In this document: positions 28,599 to 55,124 of the stretch, piece after piece | Numbering within the stretch: position 1 is the stretch's first letter | Layout: the number at the start of each line of letters is the position of its first letter | IMG/VR virus record: IMGVR_UViG_3300036715_002961 | Coordinates: 24,801 to 88,800 of that record | DNA length: 64,000 nucleotides | DNA from: a virus | Strand: one strand, 5' to 3' | Position numbers and translations under genes: made by a program | The notes under the pieces: generated by a model | Databases searched by the model: none | What the model was told of the DNA's origin: nothing | What the model saw: the letters and a program-made list of their open reading frames with translations, nothing else

Positions 28599-29269
28599 TG
28601 GAGGATCCCTCGTACAAGCCAGAATGCTTCCGCGGCCGCTTCCCCGACCTCTTCGCCTCGCGTTTCCGCCCATCGACGTACGCGGTCGACCGTGAGCCAG
28701 GTTCCCGGTCGGGCGAACTGGCTCTCGTAAGCAGCGCACGCGGCGAGCTTCGCGGATAGGTCGGCCGGCGAGAGCGGGAACAGGAACTTGCCGCCGGGAA
28801 GCTCGGGGGCGGGCCATACCGCCGCGTACGGGTATTCGTAGAGGGCGAGCATGACGCCGATGGTCGCCTCGCGCGGGCGTAGGGCCGCGAGAGTCGCGCG
28901 ATAGACGGCCTGGTGGTCTTGGTGGTGAGAGGCGTAGGCGACGAAAATTGACGTCGGGCGGAACTCGTCGATCCGGGCGTCAATCGACCCGACTAGATCG
29001 CGCTGGGCGACCATGTCGAGGCGCGATTGACGGTCGAGGCCCGCGGGGACGATGGCCCAGTCCTCTTCGGCTAGACCGAGGGCGCGCATGGAGGCGCGGA
29101 CCTCGTCGAGCGTTTGAACGGCACGACGCACGGGAGTCTCCCCGAAACTCAGGAAATCGACGCAACATTGCTTCCCTGCGCGCGTTTTGGCGGCGAGAAG
29201 GCCGCCGCAACCGAGCGCTTCGTCGTCGGCGTGGGGGGCGAGAACCAAGATCCGATCATCCCATCTCAT
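28595..29269 (-). CDS. PIG-L (LmbE) family deacetylase
   Basis: 224 residues from ATG 29269, overlapping TET by four bases. A-P-H-A-D-D-E (11-17) and H-H-Q-D-H (115-119) supply the zinc ligands and catalytic Asp of the PIG-L family. Members deacetylate N-acetylglucosamine-like sugars. Between a TET enzyme and a glycosyltransferase it most likely deacetylates the sugar placed on the modified cytosine, leaving a free amine. An alternative is precursor sugar processing. Confidence 0.85.
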   Translation of the reverse strand: MRWDDRILVLAPHADDEALGCGGLLAAKTRAGKQCCVDFLSFGETPVRRAVQTLDEVRASMRALGLAEEDWAIVPAGLDRQSRLDMVAQRDLVGSIDARIDEFRPTSIFVAYASHHQDHQAVYRATLAALRPREATIGVMLALYEYPYAAVWPAPELPGGKFLFPLSPADLSAKLAACAAYESQFARPGTWLTVDRVRRWAETRGEEVGEAAAEAFWLVRGILQ

Positions 29270-30171
29270 TCGCCGATCTCCAGTGATTGACCGTCGCGTA
29301 GTTCCTTGAGCCGTTCGTTCGGATCGACGCAATCGAGCATCTTTTCGCGCATGTAATAGACGACGGAAATCCGTTCTGCGTCCTCGGATTCCGAGACCAT
29401 GTCGGTGACACCGTGCCACTCGTGCGAGTTGAAAAACAGCACGTCTCCATCTTGGAGATCGACCGCGACACCGTATTCAGGGAATCCGAGAAGCGCGCCC
29501 GTGTACTTGCCCCGGCGGACCATGGAGATCACGCCGAATCCGTCTTTGAAGTCGCCTTTGTCCGTGTGGGTTCCGCTCGGCGCCGTGTTGTTGTTGACGG
29601 TCAGTGTCGTGAAGGGCGTCCCGGAAATGACGAACTCGGAGCGACAACGATCGCAGGCGGTGAGCTGGGCCTTGTAGCGGCTCGGCGAGGTCCGCTTGAA
29701 GAGGTCCGCGACGTGCGTGATCATCGGCATGATCGTCTGCCACTTTTCAGGCTCTTGCGCATTGAACGAGGTCTCGCGGCAGAACGGGAATCGGCCGCCT
29801 TGGCGATCGAAGTATCCGATGATTGCGGACGCAACAGCCACGAGGTGTCCGTTGGCATCACGCGTCTCTGTGTTTTTGCCAACGGTTCCATCCGCGAATA
29901 CTTTACGGGGACGTTTGGCACCCGCATATGCACCGCGATTCGTCGATTTCCGCTTACGTAGATCGTGGAGGGCGGGGTAAGCGCCATCGGTCAGCTCGAC
30001 GGGGATGGCCCTACGACGGAGCATCAGCAATGGCGCTCCGTCGGGCTTATAAACGTCCGCATCGCCGGTGAGCAGAACGGGGAGGTCGGAGGCCGAAAGC
30101 AGCTTACCGGCGAATACAGACGCACCGCCGGCGACGCGAGAGCGGAGTTGAAGCACGGGGACGGCGGTCAT
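29266..30171 (-). CDS. TET/JBP-like 2-oxoglutarate/Fe(II) dioxygenase
   Basis: 301 residues from ATG 30171. The double-stranded beta-helix core has V-N-N-N-T-A-P-S-G-T-H-T-D-K-G-D: iron ligands H202 and D204. W-H-G-V-T holds distal H253, and A-E-R-I-S-V-V-Y-Y holds R267 for 2-oxoglutarate. N-N-N-T before the HxD and the size match the phage TET/JBP family that oxidises 5-methylcytosine to 5-hydroxymethylcytosine in DNA. It overlaps the ParB-like gene upstream and the PIG-L gene downstream by four bases each, so it is cotranslated. The methylcytosine source is not in the window. Confidence 0.85.
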   Translation of the reverse strand: MTAVPVLQLRSRVAGGASVFAGKLLSASDLPVLLTGDADVYKPDGAPLLMLRRRAIPVELTDGAYPALHDLRKRKSTNRGAYAGAKRPRKVFADGTVGKNTETRDANGHLVAVASAIIGYFDRQGGRFPFCRETSFNAQEPEKWQTIMPMITHVADLFKRTSPSRYKAQLTACDRCRSEFVISGTPFTTLTVNNNTAPSGTHTDKGDFKDGFGVISMVRRGKYTGALLGFPEYGVAVDLQDGDVLFFNSHEWHGVTDMVSESEDAERISVVYYMREKMLDCVDPNERLKELRDGQSLEIGE

Positions 30172-30791
30172 TGGATCGCCTTTCGAAGCGCCGCAAGGAC
30201 GGTTTGAGAGAGGTCGGTCGTTTGGAGCTTCGCCGCGGCGCGCTTCGCGAGGGCGATGAACTCGGTGTGTTCCGGTTTTTGGAACAGAACCGAAACCAGG
30301 TTGACCGTGGTCTTGGCGGGGTCGAGTGAGACAGCTGGGAACCCGGGTTCCCTCGCGGGCGCGGGGACGTCGACGGGAATTTCGGGGATCCCCAGCTCAA
30401 GAAAAAATTCGTCGCCGTCGATGGGGACCTCCATGCCGTCGAGCATCGCGCGCAACAGAGCCGGATCGAACGCGCCGCGCTTCGCGTTGAGTTTGATCGT
30501 CAACGCTTTCGCCTGCACTTCGGTCAGGTCGTGCAGCTCGACGACTGGGCCGACGAGGAAACCGAGTTCCCGGGCGGCGCGCCATCGGTGCTCGCCGTCG
30601 ATGATGAGATCGCGGCGCTCGCCGGTCTCGTCGGTAGCCCAAACGAGCAGGGCCTGGGAGGCGATCCATCCGTCGTTGCGGAGGCCGTGAACAAGCGCGG
30701 CGCGCTCGCGCGCGCTCATGCGGTTGGGGTTCCATGGGTTCGGATTGAGCGAGAGAAGCGGCAGATTTTTGGCGGGTTGCATCGGTTTCAC
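30168..30791 (-). CDS. ParB/Srx-like domain protein 1
   Basis: 207 residues from GTG 30791 (GTGA overlap with the paralogue). N-P-N-P-W-N-P-N near residue 17 and I-I-D-G-E-H-R-W (63-70) are the ParB/sulfiredoxin nucleotide-binding motifs. The C-terminal part is unrelated to partition ParB, with no evident HTH. About half of its length is close to protein 2 downstream of the promoter side. A ParB-fold CTPase or phosphotransfer role in base modification is suggested by context. One dispersed palindrome lies in the linker (30337, E-P-G-F-P). Confidence 0.8.
   Translation of the reverse strand: MKPMQPAKNLPLLSLNPNPWNPNRMSARERAALVHGLRNDGWIASQALLVWATDETGERRDLIIDGEHRWRAARELGFLVGPVVELHDLTEVQAKALTIKLNAKRGAFDPALLRAMLDGMEVPIDGDEFFLELGIPEIPVDVPAPAREPGFPAVSLDPAKTTVNLVSVLFQKPEHTEFIALAKRAAAKLQTTDLSQTVLAALRKAIQ
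30337..30352. repeat. Dispersed palindrome copy 8
   Basis: GGGAACCCGGGTTCCC inside ParB-like gene 1, E-P-G-F-P frame. Confidence 0.9.
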
Positions 30792-31450
30792 GTGTCACCT
30801 ACGACGAGCTTGAGGGCCGAGAGGATGGTTTCGGGGACGGGGCGGCCGGCGATCAACGCGCGGAACTCGGCGTGCTCGGGGACGTCGAAAAACAGCTGCA
30901 CGTTGACGACGGCGGGCCGGGTCGACTGATGATCTTCGCCGACGGCGAACACAGGCGCGGCGGCGCCAATGGAGCTTTCCTCAGCCTGGATTTCCAGGGG
31001 CGCGACGGCGAGCATTTGCATGAGGCTCTCGCGCTCGATGCCAAGGTCGAGGCCGAGATCTTCGGATCCGAGGGCGAACTGAATCTCGCGAACAAGCGCT
31101 TCGAGACTCTCGCGTTTGAAGGTCCCGCGCTTCGAGTTGAGCTTGATCGTGAGCTTCTTTGCGTCGTTTTCGGAGAGGCCTTCGAGGCGGACGATCGGCC
31201 CTTCAACGATGCCGAGGCCGGTCGCCGCGCGCCATCGGTGCTCGCCGTCGATGATGAGATCGCGGCGCTCGCCGGTGGCGTCCGTGCTCCAAACGAGCAG
31301 GGCCTGGGAGGCGATCCAACCGTCGTTGCGAAGGCCAGCTTCGAGGCTCTCGCGCTCGAACTCGGTCATGCGGTTAGGGTTCCACGGGTTCGGCCGGAAC
31401 TGGTCGAGCAGTTCGTTCTGGCAGTTGCCGATGATTTTCTGGGTCGTCAT
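30788..31450 (-). CDS. ParB/Srx-like domain protein 2
   Basis: 220 residues from ATG 31450, with GAAGG upstream. It is a tandem paralogue of the next gene: R-P-N-P-W-N-P-N-R-M, G-L-R-N-D-G-W-I-A-S-Q-A-L-L-V-W and D-L-I-I-D-G-E-H-R-W-R are shared. The C-terminal 100 residues differ more but end in a similar beta-alpha unit. The DNA of the two motif regions is nearly identical, so the duplication or gene conversion is recent. Confidence 0.8.
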   Translation of the reverse strand: MTTQKIIGNCQNELLDQFRPNPWNPNRMTEFERESLEAGLRNDGWIASQALLVWSTDATGERRDLIIDGEHRWRAATGLGIVEGPIVRLEGLSENDAKKLTIKLNSKRGTFKRESLEALVREIQFALGSEDLGLDLGIERESLMQMLAVAPLEIQAEESSIGAAAPVFAVGEDHQSTRPAVVNVQLFFDVPEHAEFRALIAGRPVPETILSALKLVVGDT

Positions 31451-37262: not shown

Positions 37263-37529
37263 TCAGATTTGGGTGAAGCCGAGGTTTAGGAGCGCCAGTA
37301 GCGTCTCCGCTTCGCGAAGGTTCAGAACCGCCTTCGCGACCCGATCCACGGGGACGCCCCATCGGCGACCCTCGTGGGGGTAGGAGTCGACCTCGACGAT
37401 GACCAGGCGACCGTGTTCGTCGATGGTCGCTACAGCCGCTTCGCCGTCGACCGTCAGCTCGGCGAAGAGCCAAGTCGAGAGAATGTCGGCGTAGCCGTCG
37501 TTGCGTTTGGGGTAGTCAAACTTGAGCAT
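37263..37529 (-). CDS. Early protein a
   Basis: 88 residues from ATG 37529, with AGAAGG eight bases upstream. Beta-rich start (W-L-F-A-E-L-T-V-D-G-E-A-A-V) and a helical end. It is preceded by the repeated early promoter (37580-37608). No family recognised; small early proteins often act on host enzymes. Confidence 0.65.
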   Translation of the reverse strand: MLKFDYPKRNDGYADILSTWLFAELTVDGEAAVATIDEHGRLVIVEVDSYPHEGRRWGVPVDRVAKAVLNLREAETLLALLNLGFTQI

Positions 37530-37579
37530 TTGGAGCCTTCTTTCGGTTCATCGTCGGGTTCTTCCCCGCGACAAGGATC

Positions 37580-37608
37580 AACATAAACCGGAGAGCAGAG
37601 ACGCGCAA
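37580..37608 (-). promoter_or_regulatory. Early promoter, copy a
   Basis: TTGCGC, 17 bases, TATGTT. An A-rich tract precedes the -35. The leader has a CGGG-GAAGAA-CCCG hairpin before the AGAAGG site. Confidence 0.75.
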
Positions 37609-37638
37609 TGGTTTTTAGGCCCCTGCGCGCCGATTTTT

Positions 37639-38046
37639 TCACTTCGCCAGAACCGACTGGCTGCGGAAGCGAGCCGTGACGTAGCGGATGTCCACAAGGA
37701 TCTTGACGGTGGCGGCGAACGCATAGGCCTCTTCGGCCGTTGCGAACCGCTCGCCGTACATGTTGGGGGAGCGACCCGACTTGCGGAAGTTCACGACGAA
37801 GTGGGGGACGAACGAAGCGGCGGCCTTCGCCTCACGGGCGAGCGTCGCCGCGAGCTTCTTCTTACCGTAGACTTCGTCCGTTGCGCAGCGTTCGCAAAGG
37901 GCGACGTAGCCGTGGGCGAGGGCGTAGTCGGCGCTCATGTATTCGACGCCAGCGGGCTTGTTGCAGAGTTCGCAGGGGCACCCGGCGTAGCGGCCGTCGG
38001 CGGTACGGTTTTCGTTCGTCGAGGCGGTCTTGTAGGTCGTCGTCAT
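37639..38046 (-). CDS. Early zinc-finger-like protein
   Basis: 135 residues from ATG 38046. C-P-C-E-L-C and C-E-R-C are two Cys pairs that would bind zinc, as in small phage DNA-binding proteins. A C-terminal basic domain follows. Preceded by promoter copy b. Function unknown. Confidence 0.65.
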   Translation of the reverse strand: MTTTYKTASTNENRTADGRYAGCPCELCNKPAGVEYMSADYALAHGYVALCERCATDEVYGKKKLAATLAREAKAAASFVPHFVVNFRKSGRSPNMYGERFATAEEAYAFAATVKILVDIRYVTARFRSQSVLAK

Positions 38047-38099
38047 TTGGAGCCCCTTCTTTCGGTTCGTCGAGCCGGTTCTCCCCGGCGACAAGGATC

Positions 38100-38128
38100 A
38101 AGCTAAACCAGAGAGCGACTACGCGCAA
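38100..38128 (-). promoter_or_regulatory. Early promoter, copy b
   Basis: TTGCGC, 17 bases, TAGCTT. The TAG stop of the upstream gene at 38137 lies just before the -35. Leader hairpin GCCGG-GGAGAA-CCGGC. Confidence 0.75.
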
Positions 38129-38136
38129 GGGTTTTT

Positions 38137-38622
38137 CTATGCAGTGGGCGCTTTTTCTTGCAGGTAGGCGGCGAAGAGGCGTTTCGCTGCGTCGAGATAC
38201 GGCCGCAAGAGTTTAAAATCGTAATTGAATTTACCCCACTGGACGCCCGTTACGTCGGCGAGCGACTCGACTAGCTCGCGCTCGGCGGTCATCTGCGCCG
38301 ACTCCGCGACGAGCAGCGGGCAAAAACCCACGGTCGAGACGGGGAGATCCCCACGGGCGACGCGGGCCGCCTCGCACGAGGAGTCGAAGATCGCGGCGTC
38401 GGCCTTCGAGAGCAGCCACGTGTCCTTGTGCTCTCGGATGAGGGTCACGTCTTCGGCTAGGTCGGCGAGTTCCGCGGCGGGGCGGAACGAATGGCGGGCG
38501 AGGATCTCGGCCTGGTAGCCGCGGACGATCGGACGCACGCGGGCGACCTCGGCTTCGGCGGCGAGCAGGGCGCGGAAGGCGATGAGTTGGCGGTCGGTGG
38601 CGACGAAGGGCTGGGAGAACAT
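38137..38622 (-). CDS. Hypothetical helical protein
   Basis: 161 residues from ATG 38622, preceded by AAAGGAT. Helical with F-R-A-L-L-A-A-E-A-E-V-A-R-V and a small Cys pair. The frame is open further upstream, but this ATG has the ribosome site. No family recognised. It lies downstream of the gene driven by promoter c. Confidence 0.6.
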   Translation of the reverse strand: MFSQPFVATDRQLIAFRALLAAEAEVARVRPIVRGYQAEILARHSFRPAAELADLAEDVTLIREHKDTWLLSKADAAIFDSSCEAARVARGDLPVSTVGFCPLLVAESAQMTAERELVESLADVTGVQWGKFNYDFKLLRPYLDAAKRLFAAYLQEKAPTA

Positions 38623-38684
38623 GGGATCGGATCCTTTCTGAGGGGGTAGGGGCCGGGCGGCTTCTCGACGCCCAGGGGAGTGAC

Positions 38685-38918
38685 TCACGCGCCGACGACG
38701 GACTTGACACGGGCGATCTCGCGAGCTGCTTCGTTGCGGGACTTGAAGGCGGTCTCGAAGACGATGCCGTAGCCGTCTGTGAACTCGCCGCCGAGGCGGT
38801 CCGCGAGGGCGGCGAGGGCGCCGGCGACGCGCTTGTTGCCGACGCGGGAGGAGGTAACGACCGCCGTGAAGCCGCCGAGGGTCGGGACAATCGAGAAGAG
38901 GAGGTCGGAAGCGTTCAT
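38685..38918 (-). CDS. Early protein, M-N-A-S-D family c
   Basis: 77 residues from ATG 38918. The N-terminus M-N-A-S-D-L and its DNA are shared with two other early genes (40182-40496 and 40723-40968). The rest is a small alpha/beta protein with F-T-A-V-V-T-S-S-R-V. It lies right after promoter c. Function unknown. Confidence 0.6.
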   Translation of the reverse strand: MNASDLLFSIVPTLGGFTAVVTSSRVGNKRVAGALAALADRLGGEFTDGYGIVFETAFKSRNEAAREIARVKSVVGA

Positions 38919-38968
38919 CGGGGGGCCTTCTTTCGGTTCGGCACCGGTTCTTCCCGGCGACAAGGATC

Positions 38969-38997
38969 AACATAAACCCAAGAGTGCGGGCGCGCAA
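38969..38997 (-). promoter_or_regulatory. Early promoter, copy c
   Basis: TTGCGC, 17 bases, TATGTT. The leader CCGG-GAAGAA-CCGG hairpin precedes AGAAGG. The surrounding 130 bases hold no gene. Confidence 0.75.
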
Positions 38998-39047
38998 CGG
39001 TATTTTCTACGTATGGGCTACGATTTCTTGCAAAGGCCGCAAATCGC

Positions 39048-39251
39048 CTAGCGCGAGGCCTCCCATTCTTCGTGAAGAACCCGCTCGCGAGCATCGCGGG
39101 CCTCGGCCGCGCGGGCCCATTTCGCGTTTGCACTGGTCACGCGGGCGCGAGACGAGCCAGGGGGGAGCTGGGATCGGCGGTAGGAGGCGCGGGCGGCGGC
39201 GGCTTGCAAACGGCACCACTCGCGGTCAGAAGCGGGATCGAAGGGGGGCAT
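39048..39251 (-). CDS. Small basic hypothetical protein
   Basis: 67 residues from ATG 39251. Helical, Arg/Ala-rich, with D-R-E-W-C-R-L-Q and A-R-A-S-Y-R-R-S-Q. No family recognised. Just downstream of the Cys-containing 97-residue protein. Confidence 0.5.
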   Translation of the reverse strand: MPPFDPASDREWCRLQAAAARASYRRSQLPPGSSRARVTSANAKWARAAEARDARERVLHEEWEASR

Positions 39252-39274
39252 GGCGAAGGGGGCGGGAAAACGCG

Positions 39275-39568
39275 TTAAAGGGGCCACGGGGCGAGCGGGG
39301 GAGCGTCTCGCAACGCCCGGTATTTCGCCCGGATCCGGTTGGAGGGCGTGTCTTTCCAGCAATTTTCGAACGTCAGGCCGACGCACGCGCGGGCGCTCGT
39401 GTCACCGCCGGATCCGGTGATGTGGGCCATTTCTGCCTGACCCCGGGTTAGCTCGCGGTAGGCGTACTGCGGACACACGAACGGGAGAGAGCCGCGGCGT
39501 TTGGCATTGCAGCGGTGGGGAGGCGGCGCGAGGCACGTTTGAGGGCGGGCGACGGTGGGCTTCCTCAT
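39275..39568 (-). CDS. Hypothetical Cys-containing protein
   Basis: 97 residues from ATG 39568, four-base overlap with the membrane protein upstream. Cys are spread (C-L-A, R-C-N, F-V-C-P, F-E-N-C-W), and F-V-C-P-Q-Y-A-Y-R-E suggests a small metal-bound fold, possibly HNH-like, but no full motif. Function not assigned. Confidence 0.5.
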   Translation of the reverse strand: MRKPTVARPQTCLAPPPHRCNAKRRGSLPFVCPQYAYRELTRGQAEMAHITGSGGDTSARACVGLTFENCWKDTPSNRIRAKYRALRDAPPLAPWPL

Positions 39569-39729
39569 GGGATGTCTCTGCCGGTCATTTTTGCCACGAT
39601 CTTGGTCAGCGCGATGTGAGCTTCCCGCTGCTCGGCGAGCAGGCGAGAGGTTCGGTAGCCGACGACAAAGCTCCGAATCAGCAAGAAAGTGGTGAGGGTG
39701 TTCATGAACTGCTGCCACGTCATGGTCAT
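39565..39729 (-). CDS. Small membrane protein
   Basis: 54 residues from ATG 39729; a second ATG at 39723 is possible. One hydrophobic segment (N-T-L-T-T-F-L-L-I-R-S-F-V-V-G-Y), then a basic/acidic helix. Below usual gene-calling size; the ATGA overlap with its neighbour supports it. Could be a small holin-like or signalling peptide. Confidence 0.5.
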   Translation of the reverse strand: MTMTWQQFMNTLTTFLLIRSFVVGYRTSRLLAEQREAHIALTKIVAKMTGRDIP

Positions 39730-39779
39730 CGTATGGTTCCAGGTAGGGGGTTAGAAGGCAATGGGGTAGCGCTTGAGGC

Positions 39780-40136
39780 TCACGCGAACAGCTCCACCGC
39801 CGTCACGGCGTGCAGGGCGGCCTCGGCGCCGACACGGTCGACGAATGCAGCGGCGAGGCCGAACGCGCTGCGGTCGGGGCGCTCGGCGGGCTGGAGACAT
39901 TCACGCCACGTCTCGACGGCGGAATCCGTGAGATCTTGGGGCGGCTCGTTGGGGGCCGTGAACGCCAAAATGCGCGCGAAGGGGGCGTTGGGGTCGCCGA
40001 GACGGCCGACCGAGACGACCTCGCCGCCGAGGCCGAGGTAAGCAATCGGACTCGCGCCGCCGAGCAGGGCGATGGCGACGCGGGCAATGGCGACGGTGCG
40101 GGGGGAAGCGGAATCGGGGAAAAAATCGAGATTCAT
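39780..40136 (-). CDS. Hypothetical protein
   Basis: 118 residues from ATG 40136, with GAGG upstream. N-terminal helix with A-I-A-L-L-G-G-A and a C-terminal helical unit. No family recognised. Between the early genes c and d. Confidence 0.55.
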   Translation of the reverse strand: MNLDFFPDSASPRTVAIARVAIALLGGASPIAYLGLGGEVVSVGRLGDPNAPFARILAFTAPNEPPQDLTDSAVETWRECLQPAERPDRSAFGLAAAFVDRVGAEAALHAVTAVELFA

Positions 40137-40161
40137 GGGAGGATCCTCAGGTAGCGGGAAG

Positions 40162-40183
40162 GAAGGGAACCCGGGTTCCCTTC
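40162..40183. repeat. Dispersed palindrome copy 10
   Basis: A 22-base perfect palindrome at the end of early gene d. Confidence 0.9.
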
Positions 40184-40496
40184 ACGAAATACCAGCGCAG
40201 CTGATGCGACCAGCATAAGATTTGGGGTCGTTCAGATAGGCGCGGACGCCCTTTGCCGGGCCTTTCCAGCTCGCCGACTTGAAGATCTCGTTGGTCGCGA
40301 GGTCGATGAATCCCCAGCACGAACGGTGGTGGGCACCGCCGTAGGAGACGATGACCCGGGTGTACTTGCGCCCCTTCTCGAACGATACCGTGAAGGCCCC
40401 GCCCATGAGCATGGCCACGCGCTCGGCGGGGGCGTGGACGGCGATGGCCGCGGTAAGGGTCGCAAGGTCGGCGGCGGTACGGTCGGAAGCGTTCAT
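40182..40496 (-). CDS. Early protein, M-N-A-S-D family d
   Basis: 104 residues from ATG 40496. The shared M-N-A-S-D start is followed by a helical and then beta-rich C-terminal part (Y-T-R-V-I-V-S-Y-G-G-A-H). Driven by promoter d. The stop lies in a 22-base palindrome (40162-40183) that may serve as its terminator. Function unknown. Confidence 0.6.
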   Translation of the reverse strand: MNASDRTAADLATLTAAIAVHAPAERVAMLMGGAFTVSFEKGRKYTRVIVSYGGAHHRSCWGFIDLATNEIFKSASWKGPAKGVRAYLNDPKSYAGRISCAGIS

Positions 40497-40547
40497 TTTT
40501 GGGCCTTCTTTCGGTGGTCGGCGGGTTCTTCCCCGTCGACAAGGATC

Positions 40548-40576
40548 AAGCTAAACCAGAGAGCCCCGACGCGCAA
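40548..40576 (-). promoter_or_regulatory. Early promoter, copy d
   Basis: TTGCGC, 17 bases, TAGCTT. Leader hairpin CGGG-GAAGAA-CCCG. The 226-base gap between the genes of promoters d and e holds only this promoter and its flanks. Confidence 0.75.
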
Positions 40577-40722
40577 TGGTTTTTAGACCCCTGCGCACCG
40601 ATTGTGGGGCGTCACCCCCTCGACCCCGCGCGGCCTCCATGAGAGAACCGCACGAGCGGTCGCGAATGGGCGCGCCCTCAGCGGAGACGCGCAGGGGGGT
40701 TTCTCCTCGGCGCGCCGATTTC

Positions 40723-40968
40723 TCAGAACTGAACAGCCGAGCGACCAGCGACACGGTCGGCGTAACCCGCAGCGAACACGGGGCAATCGCAACCGGGAAG
40801 GCCTACGTGGGCCATTCCGTGCAGCTCTTCGAAGTGCGCCGCCTGGTAGCCGTTGTTGTATTGGGCGCTCGCCACGAAGGACGCCTCGCCGGCATACAGC
40901 CGCCGCGCGCGCTTGGTGTAGGACGACTTCGAAGAGACGATGGCGGAAACGAGGTCGGAAGCGTTCAT
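40723..40968 (-). CDS. Early protein, M-N-A-S-D family e
   Basis: 81 residues from ATG 40968. Shares the M-N-A-S-D start; the remaining part has V-G-L-P-G-C-D-C-P-V-F, a Cys pair, and no recognised family. Driven by promoter e. Confidence 0.6.
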   Translation of the reverse strand: MNASDLVSAIVSSKSSYTKRARRLYAGEASFVASAQYNNGYQAAHFEELHGMAHVGLPGCDCPVFAAGYADRVAGRSAVQF

Positions 40969-41017
40969 TTGGAGCCTTCTTTCGGTTCGGCGCCGGTTCT
41001 TCCCGGCGACAAGGATC

Positions 41018-41046
41018 AACATAAACCCGAGAGCGCTGGCGCGCAA
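41018..41046 (-). promoter_or_regulatory. Early promoter, copy e
   Basis: TTGCGC, 17 bases, TATGTT. Leader hairpin GCCGG-GAAGAA-CCGGC and AGAAGG site before the gene. Confidence 0.75.
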
Positions 41047-41080
41047 CGGTTTATTTCTCCCCGCGCGCCGATTTGTCGAT

Positions 41081-41260
41081 TCAGTAGCTTCCGGGTGTCA
41101 AATCTCCGTAAATCGTGTCGAGCGGCGAGCATTTGGGGCAGTAGCCGCGAGAGAGCAGGGCGTCCGACTCGCGACAGATCCGACAACGGGGTGACCGAGG
41201 GGGGCGGGGATGGGCCAGGAACGCACGAATTTGGGCCTCTAAGCGCTTGCGGCTAGACAT
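41081..41260 (-). CDS. Small zinc-ribbon-like protein
   Basis: 59 residues from ATG 41260, with GGAG upstream. C-R-I-C and C-P-K-C separated by 15 residues form a likely zinc ribbon, after a basic helix. Possibly binds DNA or a protein partner. Function unknown. Confidence 0.55.
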   Translation of the reverse strand: MSSRKRLEAQIRAFLAHPRPPRSPRCRICRESDALLSRGYCPKCSPLDTIYGDLTPGSY

Positions 41261-41390
41261 CGCGGTTTCTCCGCTTCTCGCGGTCGACGAGCTTCCTACG
41301 GTCATTCTCGGCCGCCCGGCGACGACGATTGCGCTCGGCGATCTCGGTCGATTCGTCGACCGGGTCGAACAGGGTTCCGGGGTCGTTCAT
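41253..41390 (-). CDS. Small highly charged protein
   Basis: 45 residues from ATG 41390, with GGAG upstream. Acidic start (D-P-V-D-E-S-T-E-I-A) and a strongly basic helix (R-N-R-R-R-R-A-A-E-N-D-R-R-K). Overlaps the next gene by eight bases. Function unknown. Confidence 0.5.
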   Translation of the reverse strand: MNDPGTLFDPVDESTEIAERNRRRRAAENDRRKLVDREKRRNRDV

Positions 41391-41424
41391 GGGCGAGTCT
41401 CCGTTGCAAGGGGTTCGCGGTAGG

Positions 41425-41679
41425 TCATGGGGCACCTGCGGAGGGGGCCAGTTTGGCACGTAAATCGGTGTAGAGCGCGTCGACTGCGGTGTCCCTGGCA
41501 CCAGGGCCTAGGACCGCGTCGAAGGCCGCGTCGAGGGCCGCGCCGTCGGCTACGCGCGCGAGGATGCGGGCGCTGAGGAGGGCGTTGCGGTGCTCGTCGC
41601 TCGTCGCCGACGACAGGGGGAGACGGGAAACCGCCCGGATCTCGTCGATCCGGGCGAAAACGCGGGCCGAAGCGGTCAT
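41425..41679 (-). CDS. Hypothetical helical protein
   Basis: 84 residues from ATG 41679 (ATGA overlap). All-helical with repeated A-R-I-L-A-R-V and A-F-D-A-V-L. No family recognised. Confidence 0.5.
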   Translation of the reverse strand: MTASARVFARIDEIRAVSRLPLSSATSDEHRNALLSARILARVADGAALDAAFDAVLGPGARDTAVDALYTDLRAKLAPSAGAP

Positions 41680-41987
41680 TTTGAGGCCTTCGGGGCGAAG
41701 TCGAGGTTGCAGAGGATTTCGCAGGGGAAAAACCGCGAGTTTCCGACGTAATCGGCGACCTGAACGACGGGGCGGATGGCCGACGATTGGACGGCGAACC
41801 CGCGCGGAACGGAGCGGCGAAGGGCTGCGAGGGTCGTCGAGACGTCGGCGTTGCTCTCGATGCGGACGCCCCAGCCGTCGCCGAGGGCGGCGCGCGAAGC
41901 GGCGCGCTTGAGCCCGGCTATGGTGCGGGGCTTGGAAATGACGCGGACGGGTTCGCCGTTGAAGAGGGCTTGGACGGTGATGATCAT
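41676..41987 (-). CDS. Hypothetical protein
   Basis: 103 residues from ATG 41987. A beta-alpha N-terminus (I-I-T-V-Q-A-L-F-N-G-E-P) and an alpha/beta end. No family recognised. One of several short co-translated genes after promoter f. Confidence 0.5.
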   Translation of the reverse strand: MIITVQALFNGEPVRVISKPRTIAGLKRAASRAALGDGWGVRIESNADVSTTLAALRRSVPRGFAVQSSAIRPVVQVADYVGNSRFFPCEILCNLDFAPKASK

Positions 41988-42011
41988 GGGTAGTTCCTTG
42001 GGGTTAGGGGT

Positions 42012-42308
42012 TCAGTAGACGCGACAACGGCCGGCGAGGGCGCGTTGATCCTCGTCGATGCCGAAGATGGTGGAGGGGAATGCGCGAACGAGACCGATCT
42101 TGGCGCCACACTTGATGCAGACGGCGTCGCATTCGTAGGCGTTGAGGGCGAGGTTGGCACGCTTCCCGCGACCAGCGACGCGCACGGGCGAGGGCTGCTT
42201 CGAGGGCTTGCAGGCGGGGCAAGCGCACGGGAAGGGCGCCGAGGTCGGCGAGGGTTCCTCGACCGCCTCGACCTCGGTTCCGTCGTCGAGAACGAGAACG
42301 ATCCTCAT
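42012..42308 (-). CDS. Zinc-ribbon-like protein
   Basis: 98 residues from ATG 42308 (ATGA overlap). C-A-C-P-A-C at residue 29 and C-I-K-C at 64 are two Cys pairs; the C-terminus is alpha/beta. Likely zinc-bound. Function unknown. Confidence 0.55.
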   Translation of the reverse strand: MRIVLVLDDGTEVEAVEEPSPTSAPFPCACPACKPSKQPSPVRVAGRGKRANLALNAYECDAVCIKCGAKIGLVRAFPSTIFGIDEDQRALAGRCRVY

Positions 42309-42436
42309 TTGACGACCTCCTGCACAGCTTTGCGAACTGCATCGCGCTGTTCGTCGGCGATGATCTGCATGACGACGGGGATCATGGAGTGCGGGTAGAG
42401 GCCGCGGCGGAGTTCCTCTTGAAGCTTCTGAATCAT
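42305..42436 (-). CDS. Short early helical protein
   Basis: 43 residues from ATG 42436, with AAAGG upstream; below the usual gene-calling size. Amphipathic helix with Q-K-L-Q-E-E-L-R-R. Preceded by promoter f, overlaps its neighbour by four bases. Function unknown. Confidence 0.6.
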   Translation of the reverse strand: MIQKLQEELRRGLYPHSMIPVVMQIIADEQRDAVRKAVQEVVK

Positions 42437-42485
42437 GGTCGGGGGCCTTTCTTAGGGCCGGCGGTTCTCCCCGCCGACAGAAAGA

Positions 42486-42514
42486 ACCCTAAACCACGGA
42501 GCGTGGACGCGCAA
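42486..42514 (-). promoter_or_regulatory. Early promoter, copy f
   Basis: TTGCGC, 17 bases, TAGGGT. Leader hairpin GGCGG-GGAGAA-CCGCC. Subtype with GACAGAAAGAACC between the hairpin and the -10 on the plus strand. Confidence 0.7.
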
Positions 42515-42523
42515 CGGTATTTT

Positions 42524-43051
42524 TCACCGACTGGGACGATTCACGCCAAACGACCGCAGTCGCGAAAGAACCCGTCGGGGCGAAAGACTCCCGTCGCAGC
42601 ACGCGTCGGAGCGGCGACAGGCTCCCCACGGACGCGAGGCGCGGACGGTGGGGGCGAGCGAGTAGGAGCCGAGGCGGGCGGTCTCGTTGCCTTCGTCGTC
42701 GAGGCGGATAGCGAATGCGCGGCGGTCGCGACCAAATCCAAACAAAACACGAGACCGGCTGCGGCTGGCCACAAAAACCACGGAAACGTGGTCTGCGGAG
42801 GCCGGCGAGCGCCCTTCGTAGGCGACGCCGACTTGAAATCGATGGGGCGGGAACCGGGTCGCTCGGCGCTGGACAAGGGCGCCATCGCAGGCAATGCGAG
42901 AGATCGTTCGCCACGGGCGCCCGCGGGTACCATCCTCGCAAGGGAACCCGGGTTCTCGTAGATCGTCGCAAACAGGGCGGCCGAGGCCGGGGTAGCCGCG
43001 CGCGGGCGAGCATGTCTCGCGAATAGGAAGCGAAGGGGGCGGGGCGCTCAT
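42524..43051 (-). CDS. Hypothetical protein
   Basis: 175 residues from ATG 43051 (ATGA overlap). Has C-D-D-L-R-E-P-G-F-P (from a dispersed palindrome), a V-G-V-A-Y-E-G-R and D-H-V-S-V-V-F-V-A-S beta core. The frame is open far upstream, but the overlapping gene fixes the start. Cys-rich C-terminal end. No family recognised. Confidence 0.45.
   Translation of the reverse strand: MSAPPPSLPIRETCSPARGYPGLGRPVCDDLREPGFPCEDGTRGRPWRTISRIACDGALVQRRATRFPPHRFQVGVAYEGRSPASADHVSVVFVASRSRSRVLFGFGRDRRAFAIRLDDEGNETARLGSYSLAPTVRASRPWGACRRSDACCDGSLSPRRVLSRLRSFGVNRPSR
42942..42956. repeat. Dispersed palindrome copy 11
   Basis: GGGAACCCGGGTTCT inside the gene at 42524-43051. Confidence 0.85.
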
Positions 43052-43359
43052 GGGGCAGCTCGTTCGGTCAGGTGCAGGGCGACCATGTCGCGGTCGCGAG
43101 GGCGGAAAAGGGCACGGTCGGCGTAGCCTCGGAATCGGAGGGGATTGCCCGCCGAGTCGACGACAATGAGGCCGGCGAGTTGGTCGACGTCGGCCGGGCG
43201 CTCGACGAGCGCAACGATGCGAGTTTCGAATTTGGCCGATCGGGTGTCGGCGAGCAGGCGGTCGGCAGCGGCGCGCATCGTCGCCGGGAACAGGGCGACG
43301 CCGGAAACGGAGGTGAAGGGGCGGTTGGTGCGGTCGAGGACGGCGTAGCCAAAAATCAT
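43048..43359 (-). CDS. Hypothetical protein
   Basis: 103 residues from ATG 43359, with GAGG upstream. Alpha/beta with I-F-G-Y-A-V-L-D-R-T-N-R-P-F and E-T-R-I-V-A-L-V-E-R-P-A-D-V. No family recognised. Confidence 0.55.
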   Translation of the reverse strand: MIFGYAVLDRTNRPFTSVSGVALFPATMRAAADRLLADTRSAKFETRIVALVERPADVDQLAGLIVVDSAGNPLRFRGYADRALFRPRDRDMVALHLTERAAP

Positions 43360-43494
43360 GGGATGCCTCAGAAGGGGGCGCGTGCGAGGATGAGGGCGCA
43401 GCGGACACGGGGGCATAGCCGCGCGTCCAGCCGTCGCCGTGGCAGGTAGGATCGAGAGAGGGGGGCGGTCCTGGCGCACGGGGACGGCGGCGCT

Positions 43495-43791
43495 TCACAG
43501 ACGGCAGCCGCGATCGTCGGACGGGTAGGAGTCGGAGGACGTCGCCGCCGTGCTGCTCGGTCCAATGGACAGCGGCCTGACGGAGACCCTCGTGGCTGGC
43601 GAACGCGAGCATGTAGGCGATGCCTACGCCGTTTCCCGTGAAACATTGCTCACCCGCGAGGCGAAGGTAGGAACCGTCGCGGTTGCGGGCGGAGAAGATC
43701 AGTTTGAGGACGCCGCTGGGCGTGGTCGTCTCGACGACTGCGTAGATGGTCTCGGCGGGGCGAACAGGGGCGCGGCGGAGTCTCGAATCAT
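43495..43791 (-). pseudogene. Early gene g, likely frameshifted
   Basis: The ribosome site and ATG (43791) after promoter g open a frame that stops after 30 codons. A coherent protein (A-E-T-I-Y-A-V-V-E-T-T-T-P-S-G-V-L-K and A-A-V-H-W-T-E-Q-H-G-G) continues in the -1 frame without its own start. Adding one C in a run of C near codon 12 would join them. A second shift near 43530 may be needed to reach the stop at 43495. This may be a real lesion or an assembly error in a homopolymer. Confidence 0.45.
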
Positions 43792-43843
43792 GGGGGGCCT
43801 TCTTTCGGGTGCGTCGAGCCGGTTCTTCCCGGCGACAGAAAGA

Positions 43844-43872
43844 ACCATAAACCGAGACGCGGAAGCGCGCAA
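43844..43872 (-). promoter_or_regulatory. Early promoter, copy g
   Basis: TTGCGC, 17 bases, TATGGT. Leader hairpin GCCGG-GAAGAA-CCGGC. Same GACAGAAAGAACC subtype as copy f. Confidence 0.75.
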
Positions 43873-47254: not shown

Positions 47255-47283
47255 GGGTTAAACCGAGAAGCGCTTACGCGCAA
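47255..47283 (-). promoter_or_regulatory. Early promoter, copy h, leaderless
   Basis: TTGCGC, 17 bases, TAACCC. Predicted start of transcription coincides with the ATG at 47247. The TAA stop of the preceding gene overlaps the -10. Confidence 0.6.
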
Positions 47284-53830: not shown

Positions 53831-54126
53831 CAGTTGGAAACCGCGAGCGGGTTCGGGTGGGTGCAGTTCATCCCGTAGAAAGCCCCGCGCATGAGGGGGC
53901 CGCGCATGTGCGGATCGATGAAGATCCGAGGGCCAAACAGAATCGGCAGGCCGAAGGGGAAGGCAAGGCTCGCGGTCGGGAACAGCTCGCGAAGCTCGGC
54001 GAGAACGACACCGGCTGCGGCGGGGGAGACGACGACCGCGATCCCCGTGCTACCGCCAGCGCCGTTCAGGTTCGCGAGAATTTGAATGACGGCGGCGGCG
54101 TTGGGCTGCGGAATTTGTGGGTTCAT
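53830..54126 (-). CDS. Hypothetical protein
   Basis: 98 residues from ATG 54126 (ATGA overlap with the sigma-like gene). Hydrophobic, with G-I-A-V-V-V-S-P-A-A-A-G-V-V-L and a C-terminal F-I-D-P-H-M-R-G-P-L-M-R. No family recognised. Confidence 0.5.
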   Translation of the reverse strand: MNPQIPQPNAAAVIQILANLNGAGGSTGIAVVVSPAAAGVVLAELRELFPTASLAFPFGLPILFGPRIFIDPHMRGPLMRGAFYGMNCTHPNPLAVSN

Positions 54127-54533
54127 TCTGGTCCGGTTCGGTGCGTGAAAGCACCGATCAAGGTGTCAATATCTTTGGATTTCAGAAGGTCCGCGACCTT
54201 CTGCATGGCGTCCTCTTCGAGTTGCCTGACACGCTCGCGCGTCAGGCCGAGAACCGATCCGACCTCGCCGAGGCTCATGCCCCCACGGTCCGCGTAATCG
54301 AGCGCGCATTCGCCAGCGGCGAGGATGTAGCGACAGGACGCGTAGGTGCAGGGGCGGGGTGTTAGCTCGCATTCGAGCCGCGTTAGAGGCAACCGCCGGC
54401 GTCGGCGGTTGTAGAGGAGCGGCGAGAGGCTACGACAATGACGCCAGCGAATCGCCCGGGGCAACAGCCCGCATGTACGTGCCCACGGGGGCGACCCTTG
54501 ACACTTCCCCTTTCCCTCTTCGCAAATGGCCAT
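54123..54533 (-). CDS. Sigma-70 region 4-like transcription regulator
   Basis: 136 residues from ATG 54533; the first 50 residues look non-coding and the true start may be near 54390. The core has C-T-Y-A-S-C-R-Y-I-L (a Cys pair) and S-L-G-E-V-G-S-V-L-G-L-T-R-E-R-V-R-Q-L-E, a clear region 4 helix-turn-helix that reads -35 elements. A candidate regulator for the nine promoters with an identical TTGCGC -35, but this is inference. Confidence 0.7.
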   Translation of the reverse strand: MAICEEGKGKCQGSPPWARTCGLLPRAIRWRHCRSLSPLLYNRRRRRLPLTRLECELTPRPCTYASCRYILAAGECALDYADRGGMSLGEVGSVLGLTRERVRQLEEDAMQKVADLLKSKDIDTLIGAFTHRTGPE

Positions 54534-54581: not shown

Positions 54582-55055
54582 TCAGATAGTAATACCGCGA
54601 ACGGCCTGCAATAAAGTGTATGCGCGAATGAGCTTCGCGTTCTCGACTTCCATGGCCTTGGTGATTTTCGGAAGGCGGCCGTTGATCACACTTTCGAATT
54701 TCACGATGAGTTTCGAGATGATCTCGTCGATACCCATCGGGTAAACACCCGGCTCGTAGCCGTACAGCCAGAGAGCACTAGCCCGATCGCCGTCGTCCGA
54801 TTCGGTGTAGGCGTAGCGAAGCGTCGGCGTGACCTCGATGCAACAGTAGAGATTCAGCGACACGACGCGGGGGCCGCTTTTGTCCCACGGACGACGGGGC
54901 GCGGCGATGTAGGAAAGGGCCTCACCGACCGTCGTGAGGATCTCTTCTGCGAGAACCGATTCGGAGCGCATGACCTTTTCCTTTTTGGAGAAGTGGGTGC
55001 GTTCCAACGTCACGAGGTCGGCAGAGGACTTGTGCAAATCTTCGATATTCTTCAT
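54582..55055 (-). CDS. Early protein i
   Basis: 157 residues from ATG 55055, with GGGAG upstream. Alpha/beta with V-V-S-L-N-L-Y-C-C-I-E-V-T and a helical end. Preceded by promoter i, so expressed early. No family recognised. Confidence 0.6.
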   Translation of the reverse strand: MKNIEDLHKSSADLVTLERTHFSKKEKVMRSESVLAEEILTTVGEALSYIAAPRRPWDKSGPRVVSLNLYCCIEVTPTLRYAYTESDDGDRASALWLYGYEPGVYPMGIDEIISKLIVKFESVINGRLPKITKAMEVENAKLIRAYTLLQAVRGITI

Positions 55056-55095: not shown

Positions 55096-55124
55096 ACCAT
55101 AAACCGCGGCGCACCGACGCGCAA
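55096..55124 (-). promoter_or_regulatory. Early promoter, copy i
   Basis: TTGCGC, 17 bases, TATGGT. The leader differs: GTCGC/GCGAC with a larger loop, and GGGAGAACC acts as the ribosome site. Confidence 0.7.

Follow-up and report, generated by a model that had tools for sequence, protein, structure and literature searches.

The recognition helix of RpoD-type sigma factors favours TTGAC-like sites, as expected from the contacts of sigma region 4 with DNA. The WhiB/Wbl proteins are four-cysteine Fe-S proteins that act as partners of sigma region 4. T4-type phages reportedly carry promoter-terminator cassettes, the PeSLs, which Comeau and colleagues are said to have described in 2014. According to passages of a 2010 review, the small T4 phage factors MotA and AsiA work at the -35 region of those phage promoters whose -10 element is still that of sigma-70, with 12 +/- 1 bp between this element and the MotA box (PMC2988021). 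The same passages state that no example of sigma appropriation outside the T4-type phages had been discovered, and note an AsiA-like protein in Chlamydia (PMC2988021).

The DNA analysed here, referred to as the window, is a stretch of 64,000 nucleotides from a virus record of 88.8 kb, of which it covers bases 24801-88800. Terminase, portal and capsid genes give this record a phage gene set, and a rough gene call from GC position placed most genes on the minus strand. We infer that the host of the phage is likely a myxobacterium. Elsewhere in the window, a minus-strand gene at 29266-30171 matched phrog_6059, a phage queuine tRNA-ribosyltransferase family (E 2.8e-13), and had a better match in phrog_24024, a family of unknown function; it adjoins two similar-looking genes at 30168-31450.

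A family joining four cysteines to a region 4.2 helix-turn-helix

An earlier note, made from the letters of the window, had described a region 4-like peptide with a Cys pair before it and had concluded that the protein is not a full sigma factor. The quoted peptide was found in a minus-strand ORF of 136 aa, which we designated Cys4-sigma4 (Table 1), and the Pfam model Sigma70_r4 (PF04545) matched its residues 84-113 with an E of 1.8e-8 and a score of 34.2 bits (cut-off 24.1). The match spanned profile positions 19-48 of 50 and left the first part of the domain unmatched; the recognition helix has T, R, E, R, R and Q as in RpoD. No Sigma70_r2 match was obtained in the whole 88.8-kb record by a search that was positive in 10 of 14 control genomes. 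Among the features of the sigma-70 family, the region 4 helix-turn-helix (HTH) is present in the protein and no region 2 was found in the record, in line with the note's view that this is not a full sigma factor. The cysteines before the HTH are real, but they number four rather than two (C55, C62, C67 and C76). The ATG start of the ORF is uncertain: codons 1-51 are weakly periodic (GC1/2/3 0.61/0.65/0.69), and from an in-frame TTG at codon 48 the protein would begin at the conserved domain.

Single-sequence searches for relatives returned nothing in IMG/VR or among GenBank phages. A 64-aa core query, run at E up to 10 against phages and 1 against plasmids, gave weak matches, of which the annotated ones were mostly sigma factors and the others were unannotated. 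The pattern C-A-L-D-x-A-[DE]-x-G...L-x-[DE] retrieved 46 viral loci from IMG/VR, most of which conform to TRxDC...RPCPxVSCRYHLYLDV...GSIKLNFPDLEPWEL...CALDVADRGGxTLEEVG...NLTRERVRQIE. The window protein and 42 viral relatives were aligned (43 rows), with four of the 46 loci set aside (L006 and L045, at DNA ends; L034, a copy of L011; and L038, shortened); a second alignment left out L029 and L040 as well. All four cysteines are invariant in the 43 rows, and because C76-A-L-D was part of the search pattern, the independent evidence is that from C55, C62 and C67. P49, R52, P61 and L71, none of which is in the pattern, are likewise invariant.

The family signature, C-x(4-11)-C-x4-C-x(n)-CALD followed by the region 4.2 HTH, occurs in the window protein with spacings of 6, 4 and 8. 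Between the third and fourth cysteines there are 30 residues in all 79 bacterial loci that carry the four-Cys signature (see below), 19-39 in the 43 viral loci fitting the expression, about 67 in L038 (by eye), 10 in L224 and 8 in the window protein, the shortest seen, from which the usual segment of about 30 residues is absent. Most of this segment has been lost yet the four cysteines were kept, as would be expected for a shared metal site, and the module is probably metal-binding. At the level of sequence, these data establish the window protein as a viral representative, with a shortened segment, of an unnamed family that joins four cysteines to a region 4.2 HTH. A literature search found no title or abstract opening on this family.

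AlphaFold modelled the window protein with a mean pLDDT of 73.6 (80-94 in the blocks covering residues 51-120) and the viral member L024 with a pLDDT of 85.0. Foldseek matches of the window protein to solved structures were weak and mostly to sigma4, and none was at E<=0.001 for either protein. Taq sigma4 (1rio_H), among the geometrically closest, superposed over 29 columns at 0.6 A rmsd with 48% identity and a Foldseek E of 1.7, and VIA-align of L024 gave no match at Z 2 or more. In the profile libraries, Pfam called Sigma70_r4 in 40 of 41 members and PHROGs a sigma-factor family in 34 of 41, with single members matching three other PHROGs families, one of unknown function; PADLOC reported only MzaA (36 of 41), and NCBIfam gave sigma-factor models, all far under their cut-offs in the one member shown. 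These matches fell on the HTH half in L024 and the window protein, the two for which coordinates were shown; in a PDB profile search, the sequences shown (60 of 71) matched profile positions 71-111 only. Overall, the library and PDB searches gave little besides sigma or HTH models, and none of Pfam, NCBIfam and PHROGs reported a model for the Cys half.

The family is present in more than 40 viral contigs and in bacteria. A scan of bacterial genomes confirmed 439 stretches, and the best 80 of these, ranked by likeness to L024, came from Myxococcales, Myxococcota, Deltaproteobacteria, Kofleriaceae, Plesiocystis and the like, some being labelled only Proteobacteria or bacterium; 79 of the 80 have the four-Cys signature. 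At E<=1e-22, the family was found in 65 of 112 genomes of the Plesiocystis phylum, a sample that includes two genomes chosen beforehand as carriers, with one copy in 58 and two copies in 7. Around 72 bacterial loci, an uncharacterised gene recurs on the same strand (a cluster of 31 loci, 29 of the members directly upstream), as does a purH-type gene (a cluster of 24 loci, 17 of the members directly downstream). Pfam, run on one example of each, confirmed purH and gave nothing above cut-off for the upstream gene, so that a MerR label given to the latter by eye was unsupported. A 63-row tree gathered its 20 bacterial rows, together with 7 viral rows, in one group of 27, and the window protein stood on a long branch among viral rows, without firm support. 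Where viral contigs nest among bacterial rows, they may represent recent borrowings or may include host DNA.

Table 1 Positions of the gene, protein motifs, promoter copies and a leader hairpin in the window
Feature	Position	Strand	Details
Gene for Cys4-sigma4-like protein	54123..54533	-	136 aa from ATG; possible TTG start at 54390-54392 would give 89 aa
Four-Cys motif C55-x6-C62-x4-C67-x8-C76	54306..54371	-	four Cys invariant in aligned members (C76 by search design)
Sigma-70 region 4.2 HTH, residues 84-113	54195..54284	-	TRERVRQLE recognition helix; PF04545 match; Taq sigma4 superposition
157-aa gene	54582..55055	-	lies after the 55124 promoter and before the Cys4-sigma4 gene; Pfam gave nothing at E 0.01
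Promoter copy TTGCGC-17-TATGGT	55096..55124	-	precedes the 157-aa gene and then the Cys4-sigma4 gene
Promoter copy TTGCGC-17-TAACCC	47255..47283	-	ATG 7 nt past the -10 element
Promoter copy TTGCGC-17-TATGGT	43844..43872	-	leader hairpin in minimum-energy fold
Promoter copy TTGCGC-17-TAGGGT	42486..42514	-	leader hairpin in minimum-energy fold
Promoter copy TTGCGC-17-TATGTT	41018..41046	-	leader hairpin in minimum-energy fold
Promoter copy TTGCGC-17-TAGCTT	40548..40576	-	leader hairpin in minimum-energy fold
Promoter copy TTGCGC-17-TATGTT	38969..38997	-	leader hairpin in minimum-energy fold
Promoter copy TTGCGC-17-TAGCTT	38100..38128	-	hairpin readable by eye; minimum-energy fold differs
Promoter copy TTGCGC-17-TATGTT	37580..37608	-	leader hairpin in minimum-energy fold
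Leader hairpin (example) CGCCGG-GAAGAA-CCGGCG	40991..41008	-	sequence and fold

The TTGCGCG promoter family and its leaders

A search of the record with TTGCGCN{13,16}GGTTTA gave 10 exact matches, nine of them in the window. All were on the minus strand and all read TTGCGCG-N12-GGTTTA; there was none on the plus strand and none in a reversed-pattern control of the whole record. Within the window, TTGCGC-N14-GTTTA occurred 9 times on the minus strand versus 0 on the plus strand, and 60 first-order Markov simulations never gave more than 1 (mean 0.017). The bare hexamer TTGCGC was not enriched (60 found versus 73.9 expected), and the looser pattern TTGCGCN{12,20}TTTA gave 10 matches in this record versus 6 in the reversed control. 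Since the first pattern had imposed both boxes, the sites were searched for again by 13 flanking columns that hold no -35 letters. The same ten sites were recovered at 12 or 13 of 13, and every one of them read TTGCGCG, which bears out the earlier note's promoter family with a single -35 box. All other minus-strand sites scored 11 of 13 or below, and the reversed sequence had none at 11 or more.

The ten sites have 17 bases from TTGCGC to the TA of the -10 element, in which A2 is kept in 10/10 and T6 in 8/10. Columns -6, -4, -3 and -2 (A, A, C, C) and C13 are identical in all ten, and spacer positions 8-10 have diverged. Just upstream of the TTGCGC box is an A-rich stretch, which we take to fit a proximal UP element. 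The AAACC and GGTTT flanks form an inverted repeat of about 25 bp from centre to centre, and 8 of the 10 sites also matched on the other strand in the flank scan. Read from the sequence, this repeat may be a dimer operator or a coincidence of the A-rich UP element with the -10 flank.

Seven of the ten promoters (window 37518-43841, minus strand) are followed by a readable leader hairpin with the loop GAAGAA or GGAGAA and stems that vary in sequence. Minimum-energy folds drew it in six of the seven, the 38128 leader folding otherwise, and the 55124 leader gave a folded hairpin with another loop. In six of the seven hairpin leaders, GAAAGAAGG and then ATG follow, and three leaders even have ATGAACGCTTCCGAC in common at the gene start. 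The promoter-leader units look like shuffled cassettes. A decayed cassette was also seen near 40693 (window about 40650-40740, minus strand), with CTGCGCG in place of TTGCGCG and without GGTTTA. The Cys4-sigma4 gene had been placed next to the promoter family by the earlier note, and it does sit close, as the second gene behind the 55124 copy: the promoter is followed by the 157-aa gene, 48 bases and the Cys4-sigma4 ORF.

Relation of the protein to the promoters

Co-occurrence of the two was assessed in several sets of records, many of which are fragments, and gave no support for a link. In a sample of 47 (44 with viral family members and 3 with terminase relatives), TTGCGCN{12,20}TTTA gave 10 matches in 8 records, at most 2 in each, versus 16 in the reversed control. 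Relatives of the window phage were three distant contigs by terminase and 14 by capsid; no close relative was found through the UvsX-like protein. These seventeen related records, of which 3 are also among the 47, had no match to the family, and the same model recovered 5 of 5 carriers as a positive control, four of which were in its alignment. The looser promoter pattern gave 8 matches versus 5 in the control in these seventeen, again at most 2 in each, and none in the record of L224, the other short-segment member. A scan of all viral contigs for the promoter core found 10 loci of one match each, judged to be chance by a rough expectation, and the family signature was in none of them.

By a gapped-word scan, which imposed TTG and in which promoter sets were judged by score, 3 of 8 family carriers and 0 of 5 capsid relatives had a repeated TTG-type set of high score. 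This difference is suggestive and is not significant (about 0.2 by Fisher's test). Scores for real versus reversed sequence were 50.4 versus 20.2 in the window's record and 47.5 versus 31.9 in G022, where the count of TTGACA-N15-CTTAA was 6, of which 4 are distinct when 40 bases are compared; in G014, TTGCTT-N17-CGTAG had 8 copies.

Several repeats were seen on reading these and other records. The 138-kb family carrier G014 (pieces L169-L175) has its own promoter-like element, TTGCTTA...CGTAG, two copies of which directly follow apparent tRNA 3' ends (by eye). In G022 (piece L195), TTGACAACTGTTGAC...CTTAAC recurs a few bases before ATG, which suggests near-leaderless genes. In G010 (pieces L184-L188), another phage record that carries the family, the perfect 20-bp palindrome ACGTAAACCGCGGTTTACGT is scattered in 12 copies, and the capsid relative G049 (pieces L202-L206) has 13 dispersed copies of TTCGAA-N8-TTCGAA, a possible operator.

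The earlier note had proposed that the protein may activate, switch or repress the promoters it listed as a-i. From the sequence evidence, action of the protein on these promoters is a plausible idea, about as likely as their being read by host sigma-70 unaided. Our preferred explanation, which we place just short of probable, is that the window gene encodes a family member in which the Cys4 module and the HTH together make a -35-directed regulator that competes with or recruits host polymerase. The RpoD-like recognition helix would bind TTG-type -35 boxes, and the Cys4 module would replace the part of region 4.1 that would otherwise dock on the beta flap of RNA polymerase. In the simplest case, there would be a feedback loop in which the protein and host sigma region 4 compete for phage promoters, and perhaps for those of the host; alternatively, the protein may help the polymerase at the non-consensus TTGCGC boxes. 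Because its gene is second behind the 55124 promoter, a protein acting at this promoter family would also regulate itself, provided that transcription reads through.

A serious contender, possible rather than probable in our view, is that the host primary sigma-70 holoenzyme reads the TTGCGC sites as ordinary strong promoters and that the targets of Cys4-sigma4 are unrelated. The sites have the sigma-70 geometry for it (the upstream A-rich stretch, TTG, exactly 17 bases and TA(3)T), and the gene and the promoter family did not travel together in the records searched. Bases 4-7 of the -35 box (CGCG), however, are off the sigma-70 consensus and yet the same in all ten flank-found sites, though the spacer has diverged. 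Such sameness past TTG would be unexpected from host sigma alone, and its recovery from the flanks upholds the argument from the -35 box. Against the preferred explanation, TTGAC rather than TTGCGC would be the expected site for a helix so like that of RpoD, and TTGCGC is only half a match. The shared T, R, E, R, R and Q, together with phage promoters that read TTGCGC rather than TTGACA, would also suit an anti-host factor that sits on the TTGAC -35 boxes of the host and shuts off its promoters while sparing those of the phage, a reading that overlaps with the preferred one. We consider it rather unlikely. The bacterial relatives speak against it: 58 of the 65 carrier genomes have a single copy, which implies a function that normal growth tolerates. 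That the protein acts away from promoters, with the HTH as a generic DNA-binding part serving, for example, nearby replication or methylation genes, seems very unlikely. ParB_N and MT-A70 genes do lie near the gene within the window, and of 44 loci (43 viral and the window), 5 have methyltransferase-like neighbours, as judged by eye, and 4, apparently including the window, have ParB-like ones; a sigma region 4 called in nearly every member argues against a generic part.

Comparison with known systems

What has been found is an uncurated family, defined by four cysteines and a sigma4 HTH, in myxobacterial genomes and viral contigs. Should it work at -35 boxes, it would be a rare case of a sigma4 module standing on its own, for which the ten natural promoters would be a ready-made test set. 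A bolder reading, which we regard as quite unlikely, is that Cys4-sigma4 proteins would be metal- or redox-switched single-domain sigma4 mimics, a widely conserved myxobacterial regulator that phages took up repeatedly so as to steer host RNA polymerase to phage promoters with a -35 box of their own; this would be sigma appropriation outside the T4-type phages.

Region 4 of RpoD/SigA (PF04545) and the window protein are alike in the HTH and in the recognition helix TRER-RQ-E. They differ in that no region 2 was found in the window's record, in the four-Cys module that takes the place of the start of region 4.1 and in the length of 136 aa. Compared with T4 MotA/AsiA, the TTGCGC box of the window is 17 bp from the -10 element rather than 12 +/- 1 bp, and the window protein has a sigma4 HTH, which the passages of the review do not describe for MotA (PMC2988021). 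The likeness of the window protein to sigma appropriation in T4 is drawn as an analogy only.

The T4-type PeSLs and the window cassettes are both repeated units of promoter and stem-loop that head small genes. The PeSLs differ in sequence and phage, and the window hairpin precedes a ribosome site and is hence no obvious terminator. WhiB/Wbl proteins and the window family share four conserved cysteines and a link to sigma region 4; their Cys spacing differs, and WhiB/Wbl proteins bind sigma4, whereas the window family contains it.
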